DNA from: Maricaulis maris
GTDB taxonomy: Bacteria > Pseudomonadota > Alphaproteobacteria > Caulobacterales > Maricaulaceae
Length of the DNA stretch: 64,000 nucleotides
NCBI RefSeq assembly: GCF_003634045.1
Contig: NZ_RBIM01000004.1
Location: 1-64,000, forward strand
Direction: 5' to 3'
The notes below the pieces were generated by a model. That model had not been told where the DNA came from. It saw nothing but the letters and a program-made list of their open reading frames with translations, and searched no databases. Below, one piece after another: positions 9,520 through 16,910 of the stretch; the first letter of the stretch is position 1; every line of letters begins with the position of its first letter. Made by a program: the position numbers and the translations under genes.

Positions 9520-9616
9520 TTGCCCGATGCCCCGGCTCGACCGGGTCCCGCGTCAGCTTGCCTATTCTGCCAATATGGTCAGGATGCCACGCAAGCGCCG
9601 GGGGAAATCGGAACAG

Positions 9617-11434
9617 ATGTTGGGATTGATTGCCGAATTGCGCCGTCGCAGCGTGTTTCGCGTCGCCGCCGCCTATCTGGTGGTTGCCTGGTTGATCATG
9701 CAGGTGGTGGCAACGATCGGCGGCGCTGCCGGCCTGCCCGACTGGGCTGACAGTCTCGCCCTGGTCCTGCTGCTGGCCGGCTTCCCGGTCATTCTCTTCA
9801 TCGCTTGGGCCTTCGAACTCTCACCGGACGGGCTTAAGCGAACCGGGTCGGCGGACAAGGCCAGTCAGGTCCCGGCCGCGGGCATGCCCGACTATGCGCT
9901 GATCGGGGCATTGGTCATCGTCGCCGTAATCGCAAGCAGCCAGATGCTGACACGTCCCGGCCAATCGGAAATACCGACAGCGGACGCAGGCGCGATTGCC
10001 GACGGCATCCCCAGTGACAATTCGATCGCCGTCCTGCCCTTTCTCGATCTCTCGCCGGCCGGTGACCAGCAATATTTCTCGGACGGGATTTCAGAGGAGA
10101 TCCTCAATGTCCTGGTCCGGATCGAAGGGCTGGACGTCACCTCGCGAACCTCGGCCTTCCAGTATCGAAGTGATACGATGGGCGTGCCCGAGATCGCAGA
10201 GCGGCTGCGGGTTCGCCACGTGCTGGAAGGGTCTGTCCGTCGCTCGGGAAACACGATCCGCATCACCGCCCAGCTGATCGATGCCCGGAGCGATGTGCAT
10301 TTATGGTCGCAGACCTATGACCAGTCGCTGACGGCGGAAAACCTGTTCGCCATCCAGGACGAGATCGCCAATGCCATCGTCCGCGCCCTCAGCGAGGTAC
10401 TGGACATTCAAGCGCCTGAGATCGCGGTCGCACCTCTGACGGACAGTGTCGATGCCTATGACCTTTATCTGCAGGCACGCGACCTTTTCCATCGCCGCAC
10501 CGATCTCGACGTCGCCGCCGACCTGGTGGCGCTGGCCGTCGAGCAGTCACCCGATTTCACCGCAGCCTGGGCCTTGCGGGCAGCGATTTCAAATGTGCGG
10601 GGGGCCCATGGCTATGGCCCCGAAGCCGGGGTGGACCAGGCGACCCTGACCGAAAGCTATGCCCGGCAAACCCTGGCGCTGGATCCAGACAATGCGCTTG
10701 CCATCGCGGTTCGGGCCAGCCATCGATCGCAGCGGATGATGTTCCACGGCGAGCCGGGCGACATTGGCTCGGTTCTCACGGACCTGAATCGAGCGGCGGC
10801 GCTCAATCCCCACGACGCCACAATCCATAACTGGCTGGGCATGGGCCGGCTCTTTGTCGGTGATCTGGACGGTGCCCTGTCAAGCTTCCAGACCTGCGTG
10901 CAGATCGAGGCGCGGTACGCAGCATGCGCCGAAAATTACTACGACACCTTGGCCGCCATGGGCCGGACGGACGAAGCATTGGCGGCACTGGAGGCCAATC
11001 TGGCCAACGGGCTGAGCACCACCCAATGGGTCAATTTCGCTGTTCTGGAGGAGAATGACGAACGGCTTGCTTTCCTGATTGCGGCCAATCAGCCCTGGAT
11101 ATTACCGGGGTTTCCGCGCCTCGGAGAGATTTATGACGCCTATCAGACCCCGAATGCCGACCATTCGGAACTCCTGCGCGAAGCGCTCGACTACATGCCG
11201 CCGGACGATCGTGACCACCCCGCCTTGCTGTTGTCGCTCGTGCTCACCCCGCTCGGCGCAGAGGGCCTGCCAGTCTCGCCGGTGTCGATCTGGCAACCCG
11301 GCGCCTCGCGCTATCGGCAAACACCGGCCTTCCGGCAATTGATGCGCTCGAGCGGCACGTTCGACTATTGGCGCGAGCACGGTTTCCCGGCTCCCTGCCG
11401 ACCGGTCGGCGCTGATGATTTCGCCTGTGACTGA
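9617..11434 (+). CDS. Membrane-anchored TolB-like/TPR protein
   Basis: A 605-residue protein from ATG 9617, behind a GGGGGAAA site (the frame is open to 9527). It starts with the common LIAELRRRSVFRV motif, then three membrane segments (about 13-35, 46-66 and 92-108). A TolB/FlgO-like N-terminal domain starting at SIAVLPF follows, with the FSDGISEEI and VLEGSVRR signatures seen in many adenylate-cyclase-associated proteins. The rest is TPR-like helices. No cyclase or DNA-binding domain is fused to it, unlike many relatives. It overlaps the LuxR-type gene by 20 bases, so the two are probably co-expressed. Confidence 0.85.
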   Translation: MLGLIAELRRRSVFRVAAAYLVVAWLIMQVVATIGGAAGLPDWADSLALVLLLAGFPVILFIAWAFELSPDGLKRTGSADKASQVPAAGMPDYALIGALVIVAVIASSQMLTRPGQSEIPTADAGAIADGIPSDNSIAVLPFLDLSPAGDQQYFSDGISEEILNVLVRIEGLDVTSRTSAFQYRSDTMGVPEIAERLRVRHVLEGSVRRSGNTIRITAQLIDARSDVHLWSQTYDQSLTAENLFAIQDEIANAIVRALSEVLDIQAPEIAVAPLTDSVDAYDLYLQARDLFHRRTDLDVAADLVALAVEQSPDFTAAWALRAAISNVRGAHGYGPEAGVDQATLTESYARQTLALDPDNALAIAVRASHRSQRMMFHGEPGDIGSVLTDLNRAAALNPHDATIHNWLGMGRLFVGDLDGALSSFQTCVQIEARYAACAENYYDTLAAMGRTDEALAALEANLANGLSTTQWVNFAVLEENDERLAFLIAANQPWILPGFPRLGEIYDAYQTPNADHSELLREALDYMPPDDRDHPALLLSLVLTPLGAEGLPVSPVSIWQPGASRYRQTPAFRQLMRSSGTFDYWREHGFPAPCRPVGADDFACD

Positions 11435-11909
11435 CCCTGCAGCCATACGCGGCCTGTGGCGCCCCGTCCTGTTCTACGCGGCGGCGCTGGCGCTCGGGGC
11501 CTTCGCGCTGGAATGGCTGCAATACCGCTTCTGGGCCCGCATGATCCCGCTTGAAATCATGATCGGGCTGATCGGTGCCGCCTTCGCGGCACTGGGGGTC
11601 TGGGTCGGGATGCGGCTCACGCGCCGGGCGCCGCCCGCGCCCTTCGTGCGCAATGAGGCGGCGCTGAAGTCCCTCGCCATCACCCCGCGCGAACTGGACG
11701 TGCTGGAAGCCCTGGTCAGCGGCGACAGCAACAAGGAACTCGCCCGCACGCTCGGCGTCTCGCCCAACACGGTGAAGACCCATATCGCCCGCCTGTTCGA
11801 CAAGCTGGGCGTCACCAGCCGCATCCAGGCGATCGAAACTGGACGCGACCTGCGTCTGATCCCGGCGGCGGGCGATACGCCCACTCCGACGACCCGGTCA
11901 GACGGGTGA
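11415..11909 (+). CDS. Membrane-bound LuxR-type transcriptional regulator
   Basis: A 164-residue protein with two membrane segments (about 15-33 and 44-66) followed directly by a LuxR/GerE helix-turn-helix (about 88-150). Signature pieces are ITPRELDVLEAL, SNKELARTLGVSPNTVKTHI and LFDKLGV. There is no receiver or autoinducer domain, so any signal must come through the membrane part or a partner. It overlaps the TolB-like gene upstream, and a DUF4199 gene follows after about 100 bases. DNA binding while membrane-anchored, as in ToxR/CadC-like proteins, is inferred. Confidence 0.88.
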   Translation: MISPVTDPAAIRGLWRPVLFYAAALALGAFALEWLQYRFWARMIPLEIMIGLIGAAFAALGVWVGMRLTRRAPPAPFVRNEAALKSLAITPRELDVLEALVSGDSNKELARTLGVSPNTVKTHIARLFDKLGVTSRIQAIETGRDLRLIPAAGDTPTPTTRSDG

Positions 11910-12012: not shown

Positions 12013-12543
12013 ATGACCCGTATCATTCTCGTTTTCGGCAGCATCGCCGGCAGCCTTGTCGCCCTCTTCCTGATCCTCGGCATGACGCTGCTGGCCGGGT
12101 CCGACGGCGTTGGCTCGGAAGCCATCGGCTATCTGGGCATGCTGCTGTCGCTGTCCATCATCTTCATCGCCATCAAGCGTCATCGCGACATCAATCTGGG
12201 CGGGGTGATCCGCTTCTGGCCGGCCCTGGCGCTGGGCCTCGGCGTTGCCGCCCTGGCCGGTGTTTTCTACGTCACCGCCTGGGAGATTTATTTCAACGCC
12301 ACCGACCGCGCCTTCATGGACAGCTATCTCAACGGCCAGATCGCCGCCCGCGAAGCCGCCGGAGCGACCGCTGCGGAACTGGCTGCCTTCCGCGACGAGA
12401 TGAGCGCCATGATGGAGCTGTACGGTAATTGGTGGTTCCGCCTGCCGATGACCTTCATCGAAATCTTCCCGATCGGCGTGCTGGTCAGCCTGATCTCCGC
12501 GGCCCTGCTGCGCAATCGCAAACTCCTGCCGCACCGGGTCTGA
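12013..12543 (+). CDS. DUF4199 family membrane protein
   Basis: A 176-residue protein with about four membrane segments (6-28, 36-54, 67-90 and 145-168). The central soluble loop contains a helix around AAREAAGATAAELAAFRDEM. Composition and layout match DUF4199, a family of unknown function. A strong AAGGAGG lies at 11981-11987, but that is 26 bases before the ATG, so the start or the translation signal is unusual; no better in-frame start was found. Its position directly behind a membrane LuxR protein suggests a signal partner, which is inference. Confidence 0.8.
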   Translation: MTRIILVFGSIAGSLVALFLILGMTLLAGSDGVGSEAIGYLGMLLSLSIIFIAIKRHRDINLGGVIRFWPALALGLGVAALAGVFYVTAWEIYFNATDRAFMDSYLNGQIAAREAAGATAAELAAFRDEMSAMMELYGNWWFRLPMTFIEIFPIGVLVSLISAALLRNRKLLPHRV

Positions 12544-12662: not shown

Positions 12663-13094
12663 ATGTCCGATTTCGAACTGGCGCTGCTATTCTCGGAATA
12701 TCTCAACACCGCCAATTTCATCTTTTCCAATTTCATGGCGCTGGTTTTTGCGATGCTGACGGCGTCCTTTTTCCTCGCCCACCGCATGGAGCGCTGGGTC
12801 GCGGCGCTCTTTCTCCTGCTCTACTCGATCGGAGCGGTGATGACCGGGTCGGGCGTCCTCTTCGCCTTTTCCGACTTTGCCGCCCTGGGCGTGCATATCC
12901 ACGAAACTGCCGGCCAGTCCGCAGACCTCGCCTGGCTCGGCCCGGCCGGGCCGGGTGGTGCGGGCATGGGGAATATGCCGGTCATGATCTCCGTCCTGCT
13001 GGCCGTCACCTATATCGGCTCGCTCGGCTTCTTCCTCGTGGTCCGCGCCAGGCGCATTGACCGGCCGGAGCCGGACGGTGAGGCCGACACATGA
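12663..13094 (+). CDS. Small membrane protein, first gene of the DUF6090 array
   Basis: A 143-residue protein with about three to four membrane segments (roughly 15-37, 42-65 and 98-122) and a glycine/proline-rich loop near residues 92-105. ATG 12663 follows GGGGAGGCGG. The stop overlaps the next start by four bases (ATGA at 13091), so it is translationally coupled to the first DUF6090 gene. No family was recognised. Its fixed place at the head of the array suggests a common membrane system. Confidence 0.75.
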   Translation: MSDFELALLFSEYLNTANFIFSNFMALVFAMLTASFFLAHRMERWVAALFLLLYSIGAVMTGSGVLFAFSDFAALGVHIHETAGQSADLAWLGPAGPGGAGMGNMPVMISVLLAVTYIGSLGFFLVVRARRIDRPEPDGEADT

Positions 13095-13828
13095 TCCTCG
13101 CCCGGATCTCCAAGGCTGTTCGCGACCAGAACTGGCTCGCCGTCAGCCTTGAATTCATCATCGTCATCGCCGGTGTGGTGGTCGGTTTCCAGGTCTCGGC
13201 CTGGAATGAGGCGCGTCAGGAACGGGGGCTGGAGCAGGCTTATCTGGAACGGCTCTTCAGTGAGTTCGAGGTTGTCAGCGACGAGCTGGACGATGCCAGC
13301 GGCGATCTTGATGATGCGCGCGATCAGGCGGAAGGCTTTCTGGCCGCCTTTGACGCCGGCGACCGCGAGACGATGGCGCGCGATACGTTCGCGCTTCTGG
13401 CCATCACCCGCGTTTCGGAAGTCCAGATCCAGTCGGCGGCGCTGCACGAGCTGATTTCCAGCGGCCGGCTCGGCCTCATCCGCAATGAGGCGCTGCGCGC
13501 GGAACTGGCCAATCTGCCGCTGGTCGAGGCCGATGCCCACGGGGTCATCGACCAGATCAAGGCCCAGCAAGTCGATATCGTCGCCACCCTGCGTCCCCAT
13601 CTTCGCGTCACGATGGACGGTCTGGGCGTGGACTCGGTCATCCTGGCTGACAGTTTCACCCCGGACGATATCGAGCTGGCCAACAACCTGGCCTTTGCGA
13701 TCTATCTCAATCGCTCGGCCGCCCTTTTCCTGCGCGTGCTGAAAAACGAGGTCGACCAGCTTCGCGCCTCACTGGCGGAAGAATTGGGCCAGCCCTCGCC
13801 CGTGCCCGCCCCGGAGACCTCGCCATGA
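13091..13828 (+). CDS. DUF6090 family protein, copy 1
   Basis: A 245-residue protein with a short basic N-terminus, the block QNWLAVSLEF, one membrane segment (about 17-36) and the exit motif GFQVSAWNE, typical of DUF6090. The outside part is helical and acidic and contains LISSGRLGLI (121-130), a motif shared by all four full copies here. Function of the family is unknown. Start and stop are ATGA overlaps with both neighbours, so translation is coupled along the array. Confidence 0.88.
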   Translation: MILARISKAVRDQNWLAVSLEFIIVIAGVVVGFQVSAWNEARQERGLEQAYLERLFSEFEVVSDELDDASGDLDDARDQAEGFLAAFDAGDRETMARDTFALLAITRVSEVQIQSAALHELISSGRLGLIRNEALRAELANLPLVEADAHGVIDQIKAQQVDIVATLRPHLRVTMDGLGVDSVILADSFTPDDIELANNLAFAIYLNRSAALFLRVLKNEVDQLRASLAEELGQPSPVPAPETSP

Positions 13829-14595
13829 TCCTCTCCCGTATCACCCGGGCCATCCGCGAGCAGAACTGGTTCGCCGTCGGACTCGAATTCGTCATCGTCA
13901 TTGCCGGCGTGGTGTTCGGTTTCCAGGTCACCGAATGGAATACGGGCCGGCAGGACCGGCGCGAGGAAGCAGCGGTCCTGTCTGCAATGCTGGAGGATAC
14001 CAGCCACTCCATCGAGGTCGCGGCGAGTGTGGCCGTGCTGATTGGCGACCAGCTTGCCGCCCTGGAGCGGCTGACTCTCGTCAGCGACCAGCCGCCCGAG
14101 CAGGACCTGCCCGACGGTTTTCAAATTGACCTTCACACGGGCGTCTTCGTGTTCAGCCTCTACAATCCTCAGATGCTGACCTTTGACGATCTGCGTCAGT
14201 CCGGCCGGCTCGCCCTGATCCGAAGCCGTGATATTCGCCGGCGACTACAGGAAATCGACGCTATCCATGCGGGGATCGCGGAGACCCGGGCCGACATCGT
14301 CTCCGTGTATTATGAATTCAGCGACCCCTATCTGATCGAGCATTTTGACCTGCGCCAGACGACGTTTTTGCCAAGTGCGCACAGTGGAAATCCGGGTCTG
14401 GAGTGGCTCTCGCCCGACGAAAACCTGCGGGATCTCAGGGCCGTCGCGCGGCAGCGCGAATTCCAGAACATCCTGCTCTACCGAGGCTTTATCATCACCG
14501 GGTATCGCGGCCAGATCGAACGGGTGATCGATCACTATGCCGGACTGGAAACAGCCCTGCGCGAGCGACTCGCCACCTTGGGAGAGCGCGCTTGA
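13825..14595 (+). CDS. DUF6090 family protein, copy 2
   Basis: 256 residues with the same N-terminal block (QNWFAVGLEF, membrane segment 17-36, then GFQVTEWN) and the second anchor LRQSGRLALIR (123-133). Between and after these anchors it differs strongly from copy 1, so the copies are old or fast-evolving. It overlaps copy 1 by ATGA and copy 3 by TTGA. Confidence 0.88.
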   Translation: MILSRITRAIREQNWFAVGLEFVIVIAGVVFGFQVTEWNTGRQDRREEAAVLSAMLEDTSHSIEVAASVAVLIGDQLAALERLTLVSDQPPEQDLPDGFQIDLHTGVFVFSLYNPQMLTFDDLRQSGRLALIRSRDIRRRLQEIDAIHAGIAETRADIVSVYYEFSDPYLIEHFDLRQTTFLPSAHSGNPGLEWLSPDENLRDLRAVARQREFQNILLYRGFIITGYRGQIERVIDHYAGLETALRERLATLGERA

Positions 14596-15317
14596 TCCTC
14601 ACGTCCATCACCCAGGCCCTGCGGACCCAGAACTGGTTCGCCGTCATCGTCGAATTCATCATCGTTCTGGCCGGCGTGGTGATCGGTTTCCAGATCTCTG
14701 CCTGGAATGAGACCCGGATCGAGCATCAACGCGAAGCCCTGATCCTGGAACGCCTGCACACCGACTTCACCGAGATCGAAACGCGCACCGCAACCGTCAT
14801 CGAACAACTGGAAGCCCGTATCGAGGCCGGCCATGCCTTCGAGGCCTTACTGCGCCGAAACCAGAGCGAGGTCAGCGATCTTGAATTCTTCGCCAGCCTG
14901 CAAAACGCCATCGGCACGCCGGTCCCCAATGGACGCTCGGCGACCTATGCCGAACTGGTCGCCTCCGGCGAGATGCGGCTGATCCGGTCCGAAGCCCTGC
15001 GTGAAACCCTGGTCGAATTTGACGAGCAGGTGCGTCGCCAGGAGCTCGCCTATGCCTCGCTGGCGCGGCTGATCACCGATAATGCCGGCATCCTGCTGAA
15101 CGTGCAGACCTACGCCTCCGATGACCCCGACAGCTTGCCGCCGCACCTCTATGCGGCGCTCGCGGAGATCCGCCAGTCGGCCGAAGTCTATACCGCCGCC
15201 CGCCTCACCACCCGCGCGAATTTCGTCAATCGTGTCTGGCATCAGGGCACGCTGGAACGGGCCCGTGACGTGCTCGCGGCGATGCCCGACGACGCCCCGG
15301 AGGCAAACGCACCATGA
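14592..15317 (+). CDS. DUF6090 family protein, copy 3 (TTG start)
   Basis: 241 residues with QNWFAVIVEF, a membrane segment at about 16-35, GFQISAWNE and the anchor LVASGEMRLIR (122-132). The open frame continues upstream inside copy 2, but alignment with the sister genes puts the start at TTG 14592, overlapping the previous stop as TTGA, with GGAGAG just upstream. The TTG replaces the ATG used by the other copies and may lower its expression. Confidence 0.85.
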   Translation: MILTSITQALRTQNWFAVIVEFIIVLAGVVIGFQISAWNETRIEHQREALILERLHTDFTEIETRTATVIEQLEARIEAGHAFEALLRRNQSEVSDLEFFASLQNAIGTPVPNGRSATYAELVASGEMRLIRSEALRETLVEFDEQVRRQELAYASLARLITDNAGILLNVQTYASDDPDSLPPHLYAALAEIRQSAEVYTAARLTTRANFVNRVWHQGTLERARDVLAAMPDDAPEANAP

Positions 15318-16066
15318 TCCTTTCCCGCATTGCCCGCGCCCTGAAAGACCAGAACTGGCTCGCCGTCGGCATCGAATTCGTGATCGTGATCCTGGGTGTG
15401 GTGATCGGCTTTCAGGTCACGGCCTGGAATGCCGACCGCGCCGAACAGGACGTGATCACGCGGCAATTGCACGAAGTTCGCGATGATATCCGGGCCGACA
15501 TCACGGCCATTGAGCTGACCCGCGATGCCAGCCTCTGGCGTCTCGCCGCGGCGGAGCACCTGCTGACCGAGGCCAATGACGGGGCCGGGTTGCGATCGAT
15601 GTCGACGGCGCCCGGAGGCACGGTTGACGCGACCCTCCTGCCCACCGTGACCGAGGCCGACCTGCCGATGCTTCTGGCGCGGGTCAATCTGATCCGCGGC
15701 GTCACCGGGCGACGTACGGGATATCAAAGCCTGGTCAATGGCGGCAGCCTGCGCCTGATCGAGGCCGGCGAGCTGCGCTCTTCCATCCAGCGCTATTATG
15801 CCGGTTATGACGATTTCCAGAGAAATCTGAACACCTTCCGGGACATTCGCAGCGCGGCCCTGCCAGTACTGTTCGAGCACGGGTTTTCGTTATTCTCCGA
15901 CCATGACGTCGACGCCGTGCTCGACGCCGCCCGCAACGATCCCGCCATCCTCGCCTATCTGCGAACCAGTCGGGAAACCGGGCAGTTCCAGACCGCCAGC
16001 ATTCTGGCCCGGGAGGACGAGGCCCGCGCCCTGCTTGCCCTTATCAATGCGGAGCTGGGCGAATGA
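15314..16066 (+). CDS. DUF6090 family protein, copy 4
   Basis: 250 residues with QNWLAVGIEF, a membrane segment at about 17-36, GFQVTAWN and a slightly later second anchor, LVNGGSLRLIE (140-150). The first 19 residues differ from the truncated fifth copy at a single position, which points to a recent duplication of this end. ATGA overlaps occur on both sides. Confidence 0.88.
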   Translation: MILSRIARALKDQNWLAVGIEFVIVILGVVIGFQVTAWNADRAEQDVITRQLHEVRDDIRADITAIELTRDASLWRLAAAEHLLTEANDGAGLRSMSTAPGGTVDATLLPTVTEADLPMLLARVNLIRGVTGRRTGYQSLVNGGSLRLIEAGELRSSIQRYYAGYDDFQRNLNTFRDIRSAALPVLFEHGFSLFSDHDVDAVLDAARNDPAILAYLRTSRETGQFQTASILAREDEARALLALINAELGE

Positions 16067-16161
16067 TCCTGGCCCGTATCGCCCGCGCCCTGAAAGATCA
16101 GAACTGGCTGGCCGTTGGACATTCGTTGGTCGCTCGGGCGCTGCCCGGTGGTGCCGGATGA
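16063..16161 (+). pseudogene. Truncated fifth DUF6090 copy
   Basis: Starting at ATG 16063, 19 codons match the N-terminus of copy 4 (through QNWLAVG) with one change. The frame then leaves the family sequence just before the membrane segment and stops at TGA 16159-16161 after 32 codons. The break point coincides with the next gene, whose ATG overlaps this stop (ATGA at 16158). It could be a deletion remnant or a short translated ORF kept to pass ribosomes to the next gene. Confidence 0.75.
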
Positions 16162-16910
16162 GGCGACGCGTCCGCCGCAAGGTTGAACGGTCCGCGCCCC
16201 TTCCCGTGCGCCATGCCTGGATGACGACCTGGGTCATCATGCTGGCGGCCTTTTTCTGGTATCTGATCCATCTGTTTTCGACCGTCTCCTACAACTGCCG
16301 CGAGTTCTATGACTGGTGGTTCGACCGCGAGATGTTCGGCATGGCGACACTGCAATGGACCAGTCTTTATGCGGTCACACTGGCGCTGTGGTTCTGCGTC
16401 CTCATCGTCCGCCCCAAACGCGAACGCATCCCGGTCTGGATCCGTTTTTTCCAGGGCAAGATGATCTTCTGGATAGTGTTGATCAGCGTTTTCCAGTGGG
16501 GGATGGTCCGGCCGCAATCAGACGAGGCGCGCATCTACGCCTGGTTCCAGGATGAGGTCGCGGGCTGGCCGGTGATAAACTGGTTTTTCAGGGGGCAGAG
16601 CATGCCCTTCGTAGAAATATACGACACATTCAACGGCGTGGAAATTGACTACGAAGACCCGTTGTTCGACGAGGCGGAGGCCCTCCAGGCCGAGTATGAA
16701 CGGACCTTCCGGGCCAACATGATCCCCCGCCGAATGGGCATGTATCGTGGCGAGCTGGAATGCGAGGCGACGGCCCGCATCGACAAGGCCTGGGAGCGGG
16801 CCTTCACTGTCTATTTCAAGCGCTGGCGTGAGGAACAACCGGTCGAGGCGCCCACAGGGTCGGTCTGGGACATGCCCCTCGAACCGGAACCGGATGAGGC
16901 GGATCGTTGA
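16158..16910 (+). CDS. Hypothetical membrane protein at the end of the array
   Basis: 250 residues with an arginine-rich N-terminus and three membrane segments (about 24-42, 62-84 and 98-116). A 130-residue C-terminal part rich in Trp, Glu and aromatic residues follows. I do not recognise the family. The start at 16158 couples it to the truncated DUF6090 ORF by ATGA; ATG at 16221 is an alternative, but coupling favours the first. It is the last member of the seven-ORF coupled chain. Confidence 0.72.
   Translation: MRRRVRRKVERSAPLPVRHAWMTTWVIMLAAFFWYLIHLFSTVSYNCREFYDWWFDREMFGMATLQWTSLYAVTLALWFCVLIVRPKRERIPVWIRFFQGKMIFWIVLISVFQWGMVRPQSDEARIYAWFQDEVAGWPVINWFFRGQSMPFVEIYDTFNGVEIDYEDPLFDEAEALQAEYERTFRANMIPRRMGMYRGELECEATARIDKAWERAFTVYFKRWREEQPVEAPTGSVWDMPLEPEPDEADR

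Follow-up and report, generated by a model that had tools for sequence, protein, structure and literature searches.

A translationally coupled array of DUF6090-related membrane proteins in Maricaulis maris, a candidate for a short recombining cassette array

The window analyzed here, a stretch of 64,000 nucleotides (nt) of Maricaulis maris DNA (C4:1-64000 of the 3.57 Mb source genome, labelled G000; relatives are labelled G for genomes and L for loci), contains a tandem array of genes for membrane proteins that are remotely related to the family DUF6090. Overall, the best explanation for this array, with a probability of about 0.6, is a short cassette array whose units recombine and are translationally coupled. 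The array and its relatives are built from units with a conserved 5' block and a divergent C-terminal domain (C-domain). These units are connected by a characteristic stop/start joint, their number and type vary between genomes, some of them are mosaic, and the C-domains are under purifying selection.

Reading and translation of the open reading frames (ORFs) confirmed the preliminary description of this DNA, according to which four full copies and a truncated fifth copy are located between two genes for membrane proteins:

12663 to 13094, + strand: tm1, membrane protein of 143 amino acids (aa), family unassigned, opens the coupled chain
13091 to 13828, + strand: copy A, 245 aa, ATG start, C-domain type T7
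13825 to 14595, + strand: copy B, 256 aa, ATG start
14592 to 15317, + strand: copy C, 241 aa, TTG start, C-domain type T0
15314 to 16066, + strand: copy D, 250 aa, ATG start, C-domain type T9
16063 to 16161, + strand: E', stump of 32 codons that retains about 19 codons of the conserved block
16158 to 16910, + strand: tm2, membrane protein of 250 aa, family unassigned, coupled to E'

The chaining of seven ORFs by overlaps of 4 bp, described for 13091 to 16161, was also borne out: all seven are on the same strand, and each of the six joints overlaps by exactly 4 bp (-4). Copies A to D are mutually related (pairwise blastp E 3e-18 to 2e-26). The alignments span only the first 45 residues for the pairs A-D and B-D and 150-186 residues for the remaining pairs, and copy D is 24-27% identical to copies A to C. 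The block of E' is closest to that of copy D (49 of 57 nt identical). The near relative G063 carries a stump of the same length, which marks E' as an inherited relic and excludes a sequencing error.

The relatives were compared using a detailed sample of 40 loci with 208 units, 185 of them full. These loci come from 32 of the 72 matching genomes and were chosen from the best hits, so that the sample is biased toward arrays. Within it, 128 of the 147 family joints less than 300 bp apart show the -4 overlap and a further 11 overlap by 1 bp. Same-strand neighbors outside the family, counted with a generous start rule in 31 loci, show the -4 overlap in 40 of 190 cases (Fisher p 7.5e-36 versus the family joints). 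The family joints nearly always open with ATGATCCT, and the TGA that ends the upstream gene belongs to the start of the one that follows, within the ATGATCC start of the conserved block. Relatives also occur in a second phylum, that of the Rhodothermales genome G138, which we take to be Bacteroidota in GTDB (the Rhodothermales are now placed under Rhodothermota at NCBI). In these units only 8 of 77 close joints have the -4 overlap. The strict joint is a trait of the Maricaulaceae-type branch and is absent as a rule from the second-phylum branch.

The conserved 5' block of each unit comprises about 40 codons (about 108-120 nt) and encodes the membrane helix. In genomes with at least four units the mean DNA identity of the blocks within arrays is 0.66-0.87 per genome, and the stretch after the block shows identity at chance level (0.29-0.35, ungapped). 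The second-phylum arrays have a matching architecture with a repeated block and unrelated C-domains. A comparison of the C-domains revealed no pair with at least 60% identity within genomes (5.8 expected at random) and 118 such pairs between genomes; at 50% or more the counts are 3 and 183, and the between-genome counts include four identical pairs of G110/G120. Arrays thus hold different types from a common stock and not recent duplicates. Type T0 is the most widespread (10 genomes among the sampled units), and copy B has no C-domain relative at 50% identity among the 185 units.

Composition varies between species, each represented by one genome: between 1 and 21 full copies were counted per genome in the sampled loci, and the sets of C-domain types differ even among close relatives. 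The gene order is X-Y-A-C-D-E'-tm2 in G063 and A-B-C-D-E'-tm2 in the window, and G078 has X-Y-A-C. The uncorrected ratio of non-synonymous to synonymous differences (pN/pS) of the C-domains ranges from 0.07 to 0.37 in 68 pairs, which shows that these are functional proteins under purifying selection.

Mosaic units were found by comparing mismatches along orthologous pairs. In the pair G024_18/G027_1, 26 mismatches are located in nt 1-108, none in nt 109-150 and 7 beyond nt 150. At synonymous sites the blocks differ by 0.52 and the C-domains by 0.03 (p 4e-10), and C-domains that are 99% identical in DNA sit behind blocks that are 76% identical. Three further pairs deviate in the same direction (G112_7/G130_1, p 6.8e-8; G024_19/G027_6, p 5.1e-6; G024_14/G027_11, p 2.0e-4). 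Where the synonymous difference of the C-domains is below 0.4, that of the block is higher in 17 of 25 pairs (Wilcoxon p 0.0025). In addition, exact runs of at least 25 nt and at most 95 nt link units with unrelated C-domains in 126 within-genome pairs, all of them inside nt 1-126. A similar pattern is present in the window itself:

13091 to 13120, + strand: 5' end of copy A, divergent from the orthologue G063_3 (8 mismatches, all in nt 1-30)

Between these two genes there is no mismatch in nt 31-183, the next one is at nt 184, and 28 of 699 positions differ after nt 36. The excess of mismatches at the 5' end has a Fisher p of 1.7e-4, for a boundary at nt 36 that was picked after the data had been seen. 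The pattern points to a putative recombination breakpoint just past 13120; no donor for the 5' end was identified among the relatives compared.

A number of results speak against a recombining array. Blocks of different types in Maricaulis are as similar within as between genomes (permutation p 0.60), and in two other sets they are slightly more alike within a genome (p 0.012 and 0.004). Because of this near-equality a part of the block identity has to be attributed to plain constraint. The exact runs of at least 25 nt also occur between genomes, in 5.4%, 12.7% and 4.9% of the pairs, compared with 7.4%, 18.3% and 18.7% within genomes. For most genome pairs, units with orthologous C-domains also have, on average, more closely related blocks than non-orthologous units (for example 0.146 versus 0.212), so that the linkage between block and C-domain is only partly broken. 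Lower similarity in the block than in the remainder was seen in only 23 of 45 close pairs, and a higher synonymous difference in the block in just 22 of 68. Taken singly and at p<0.01 (uncorrected), only 4 of the 68 pairs deviate significantly as expected and 8 in the reverse direction; for the latter, either homogenization or constraint could be the explanation. Strong genome-specific homogenization of the block, which had been expected, was weak or absent in the permutation tests, and the claim is therefore limited to repeated swapping. Finally, no toxin or other target was recognized among the recurrent neighbors or among ten neighbors scanned with Pfam; type VII secretion systems (T7SS) were not searched for.

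In the proposed mechanism, which we consider very probable, the product of each cassette would begin with an amphipathic helix, followed by a single membrane helix and, as C-domain, a helical bundle. The 5' block would have a triple role as membrane anchor, as start codon that embeds the preceding TGA, and as region of homology for the gain and loss of cassettes and the exchange of C-domains. Since the TGA lies inside the start of the block, a crossover within the block would swap the C-domain without loss of frame or coupling and leave an intact chain. Selection would maintain the function of the C-domains, with different types in each array. The mosaic sequences suggest homologous recombination as the swapping mechanism. 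No recombinase was recognized beside the arrays in the neighbor scans, which were not a systematic search. Integron-like spacers were considered and rejected, as the longer repeat families of L115 are the coding block itself; no dedicated attC search was made.

The assignment to DUF6090 is based on a profile-profile comparison and not on a Pfam match. With Pfam, DUF6090 was seen in copy C only, with E 0.023 and a score of 14.9 bits, which is below the cut-off of 23.5, and copies A, B and D gave no DUF6090 match at E≤0.1; a search of NCBIfam found no match for copies A to D. One further sub-threshold match to PF19578 is located elsewhere in the source genome. As only 13 of 99 related proteins match PF19578 at E≤0.01, the Maricaulaceae branch is mostly outside the Pfam model. 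Using hhalign, a Maricaulaceae-type profile of 78 rows including copies A to D (A4) was aligned with a canonical profile of 23 second-phylum rows (A5), all 23 of which match PF19578. The alignment covers 233 columns with a probability of 99.7% (E 7.5e-27). The label DUF6090 given in the preliminary description is therefore correct as a remote homology, but not as a Pfam match above the cut-off. Compared with canonical DUF6090 proteins, the Maricaulaceae units have the homologous 233 columns and also form strings with a repeated 5' block, and they differ in the strict joint.

Both branches contain the motif E-x6-G-x3-G/A-x-Q-x3-W in identical register. In the 185 alphaproteobacterial units the frequencies are 0.65 for E21, 1.00 for G28, 0.82 for G32, 0.98 for Q34 and 0.90 for W38. 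In the second phylum 97 of the 106 units counted had been preselected by E, G and Q, and only A32 (1.00) and W38 (0.96) are independent. Of the two anchors proposed earlier, the N-terminal membrane block is kept in these residues. The mid-protein motif can be seen by eye in all four copies, but its strict form, [SG]G-x3-LI, is present in only 43 of the 185 alphaproteobacterial units, where shuffled sequences would give 1.3, and in 18 of the 106 second-phylum units.

AlphaFold2 models of copy A and copy D have a predicted local distance difference test score (pLDDT) of 94.1 and 91.4, respectively, and a predicted template modeling score (pTM) of 0.83 in both cases. They share a common plan, with an N-terminal helix of 10-11 residues followed by a helix of 73-75 residues, which starts with the membrane segment, and by further long helices. 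The C-terminal domain is modeled as a helical bundle. The basic N-terminal residues suggest an N-in topology, which would place the C-domain in the periplasm. A sequence search of solved structures gave a best E of 0.029, which we took as chance. The structural neighbors found with VIA-align are helical bundles of a generic kind that do not reach the stated background, and designed bundles and Borrelia surface proteins rank level with sensors in these lists.

Matches at E≤0.001 were found in 72 of 137 Maricaulaceae genomes; the 36 named loci include 17 from Maricaulis and 3 from Hyphobacterium. A search of 396 Pseudomonadota genomes gave matches at E≤1e-8 in 15. For the second phylum, PF19578 was matched in 14 of 99 genomes, and six of these have 8 to 30 matches each. 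A region of 59 kb in G181 (L115-L117, C2:76000-135000) contains 39 canonical DUF6090 units with assorted enzymes interspersed and variable spacers. The source genome has one more clear copy at C2:111998-112729 (L004) and a weak one at C1:217997; L004 is a lone relative with a canonical-looking block (...VFGVFIGLQVNNWNE). In G071 a copy of the array family is split in two by a stop (L082:5428-6135). A Rubrivirga contig (L072, 758-1519 and 2448-3209) carries two units about 0.9 kb apart with identical first 50 residues, perhaps a recent duplication. Carriage by phages or plasmids was considered, but no relative was confirmed in viral contigs, phage records or plasmid records at the sensitivities used. 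Known defense families were likewise rejected, with weak PADLOC matches on 1-2 of 99 members and a PHROGs match on 1 of 99.

The neighborhood of the arrays was compared in 31 loci. Two conserved genes, presumably for 4-hydroxyphenylpyruvate dioxygenase and a VOC-type protein, occur in 11 loci each. Three other recurrent neighbors are located upstream of the array in the window:

9527 to 11434, + strand: gene for a protein of 635 aa, presumably of the TolB-like/TPR type; 11 of 31 loci
11415 to 11909, + strand: gene with a LuxR-type DNA-binding domain (GerE, Pfam) and a hydrophobic N-terminal part; 6 of 31 loci
12013 to 12543, + strand: gene for a DUF4199 membrane protein (Pfam); 6 of 31 loci

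A DUF3500 gene was also found in 6 loci. The gene tm1 is present in 4 loci, with the -4 joint in all 4; its product matched no Pfam family above the cut-off, and that of tm2 none at E≤0.1. Arrays of at least two copies with the same strict joint recur in the relatives, as had been anticipated. The expected conservation of the flanks applies in part, to the two genes found in 11 loci; otherwise the flanks are variable. The product of 9527 to 11434, which we take to be of the TolB-like/TPR type, matched no Pfam family at E≤1e-5; TPR matches were found in a relative that lies within the long array of G181. At E≤1e-20 the gene was found in 5 of 19 genomes of the genus. Nine of the 13 matches are beside arrays (one in G000, three in G063, four in G068, one in G078), two are elsewhere in G063 and two on contigs of G073 without a known array. 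It is a possible partner of the array. Up to three tandem copies of it adjoin the array in L079 and L088. Two Maricaulis arrays have one further gene type in common at their upstream end (L075:8304-9308 and L078:11801-12778), presumably encoding a PhoH-like ATPase. The source genome has no match to the VgrG-type family PF05954, and the controls were positive. PF05860 gave no match there either, but its controls were likewise silent.

A text search of a library of 5.39 million papers turned up no description of DUF6090-type proteins or of such tandem strings. PMC9484751 describes T7SS immunity strings of firmicutes (esaG, tipC and tsaI) as non-identical paralogues in variable number, with gain and loss of esaG and tipC driven by recombination via conserved blocks. 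The tsaI genes encode membrane proteins that are conserved in a single 5' block (about 75 residues) and variable in the rest; the authors reported little recombination in tsaI, where there is just this block and the intergenic regions vary. The array shares with these strings the variable number of paralogues and, judging from the mosaic pairs and the breakpoint in copy A, with limited homogenization, probably the recombination in the block. Of the strings described there, tsaI is the closest in form, with membrane proteins and a single 5' block. However, the single block of the array overlaps the preceding stop codon, so that one block can suffice. In contrast to the T7SS strings no toxin gene was found at the arrays; the likeness is architectural, and no sequence relationship is claimed. 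The accessible part of PMC3482391 describes homogeneous polyimmunity loci as tandem, same-strand, closely spaced and distantly related paralogues of a single family, which are not interrupted by toxin genes and differ in number and type between relatives. The array is likewise tandem, on one strand and closely spaced, with number and type differing between species, but its members are membrane-anchored helical proteins that are not among the families listed in that part.

Our preferred, though tentative, guess for the function is a repertoire of binding proteins that face the envelope and would act on varied agents from outside, in the manner of immunity or exclusion. The likeness to immunity strings and polyimmunity loci is one of architecture: the paralogues are co-expressed, non-redundant and interchangeable, and they evolve under purifying selection. 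We know of no member of the array family that neutralizes a toxin. A wider version of this guess is somewhat less likely. It would assume that in both phyla the block acts as anchor, coupler and recombination site, that single crossovers rebuild an exposed repertoire, and that the array is a toxin-free envelope immunity library.

In our ranking of the possible functions, itself a guess, the immunity-like repertoire is followed by an envelope-sensor repertoire, which we consider rather unlikely. Here the C-domains would be ligand-binding four-helix bundles as in chemoreceptors and sensor kinases, and the signal would be transmitted by the membrane helix or received by the neighbors of the LuxR and TolB-like/TPR types.

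Plain tandem duplication and divergence, in which the block is kept by constraint on the membrane helix alone and C-domains are not exchanged, is improbable. It would agree with the weak homogenization within genomes, with the conservation of the block motif across phyla and with the orthologue pairs, no more than about half of which have a block less similar than the remainder. However, it does not account for the lack of C-domain pairs with at least 60% identity within any sampled genome, and constraint cannot yield synonymous differences in the block beside an unchanged C-domain, as found in four pairs, or explain the mismatch pattern of copy A.

Equally improbable is the hetero-oligomeric membrane complex with a fixed subunit ratio favored in the preliminary description, in which the copies would be co-translated subunits of one machine assembled via the shared membrane helix: the strict coupling and the polar and small residues kept in this helix (E21, G28-x3-G32, Q34), a pattern that can pack membrane helices in general, would fit, but copy number and C-domain sets vary widely even in close relatives, single copies occur (G073, G074 and L004), and tm2 is present in 2 of 31 loci.

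Taken together, DUF6090-type proteins form long, changeable strings in two phyla. If their C-domains bind outside agents, these strings would record the exposure of the bacteria. They would also offer a clean natural case of gene shuffling by recombination, in which overlapping stop and start codons keep the operon intact.

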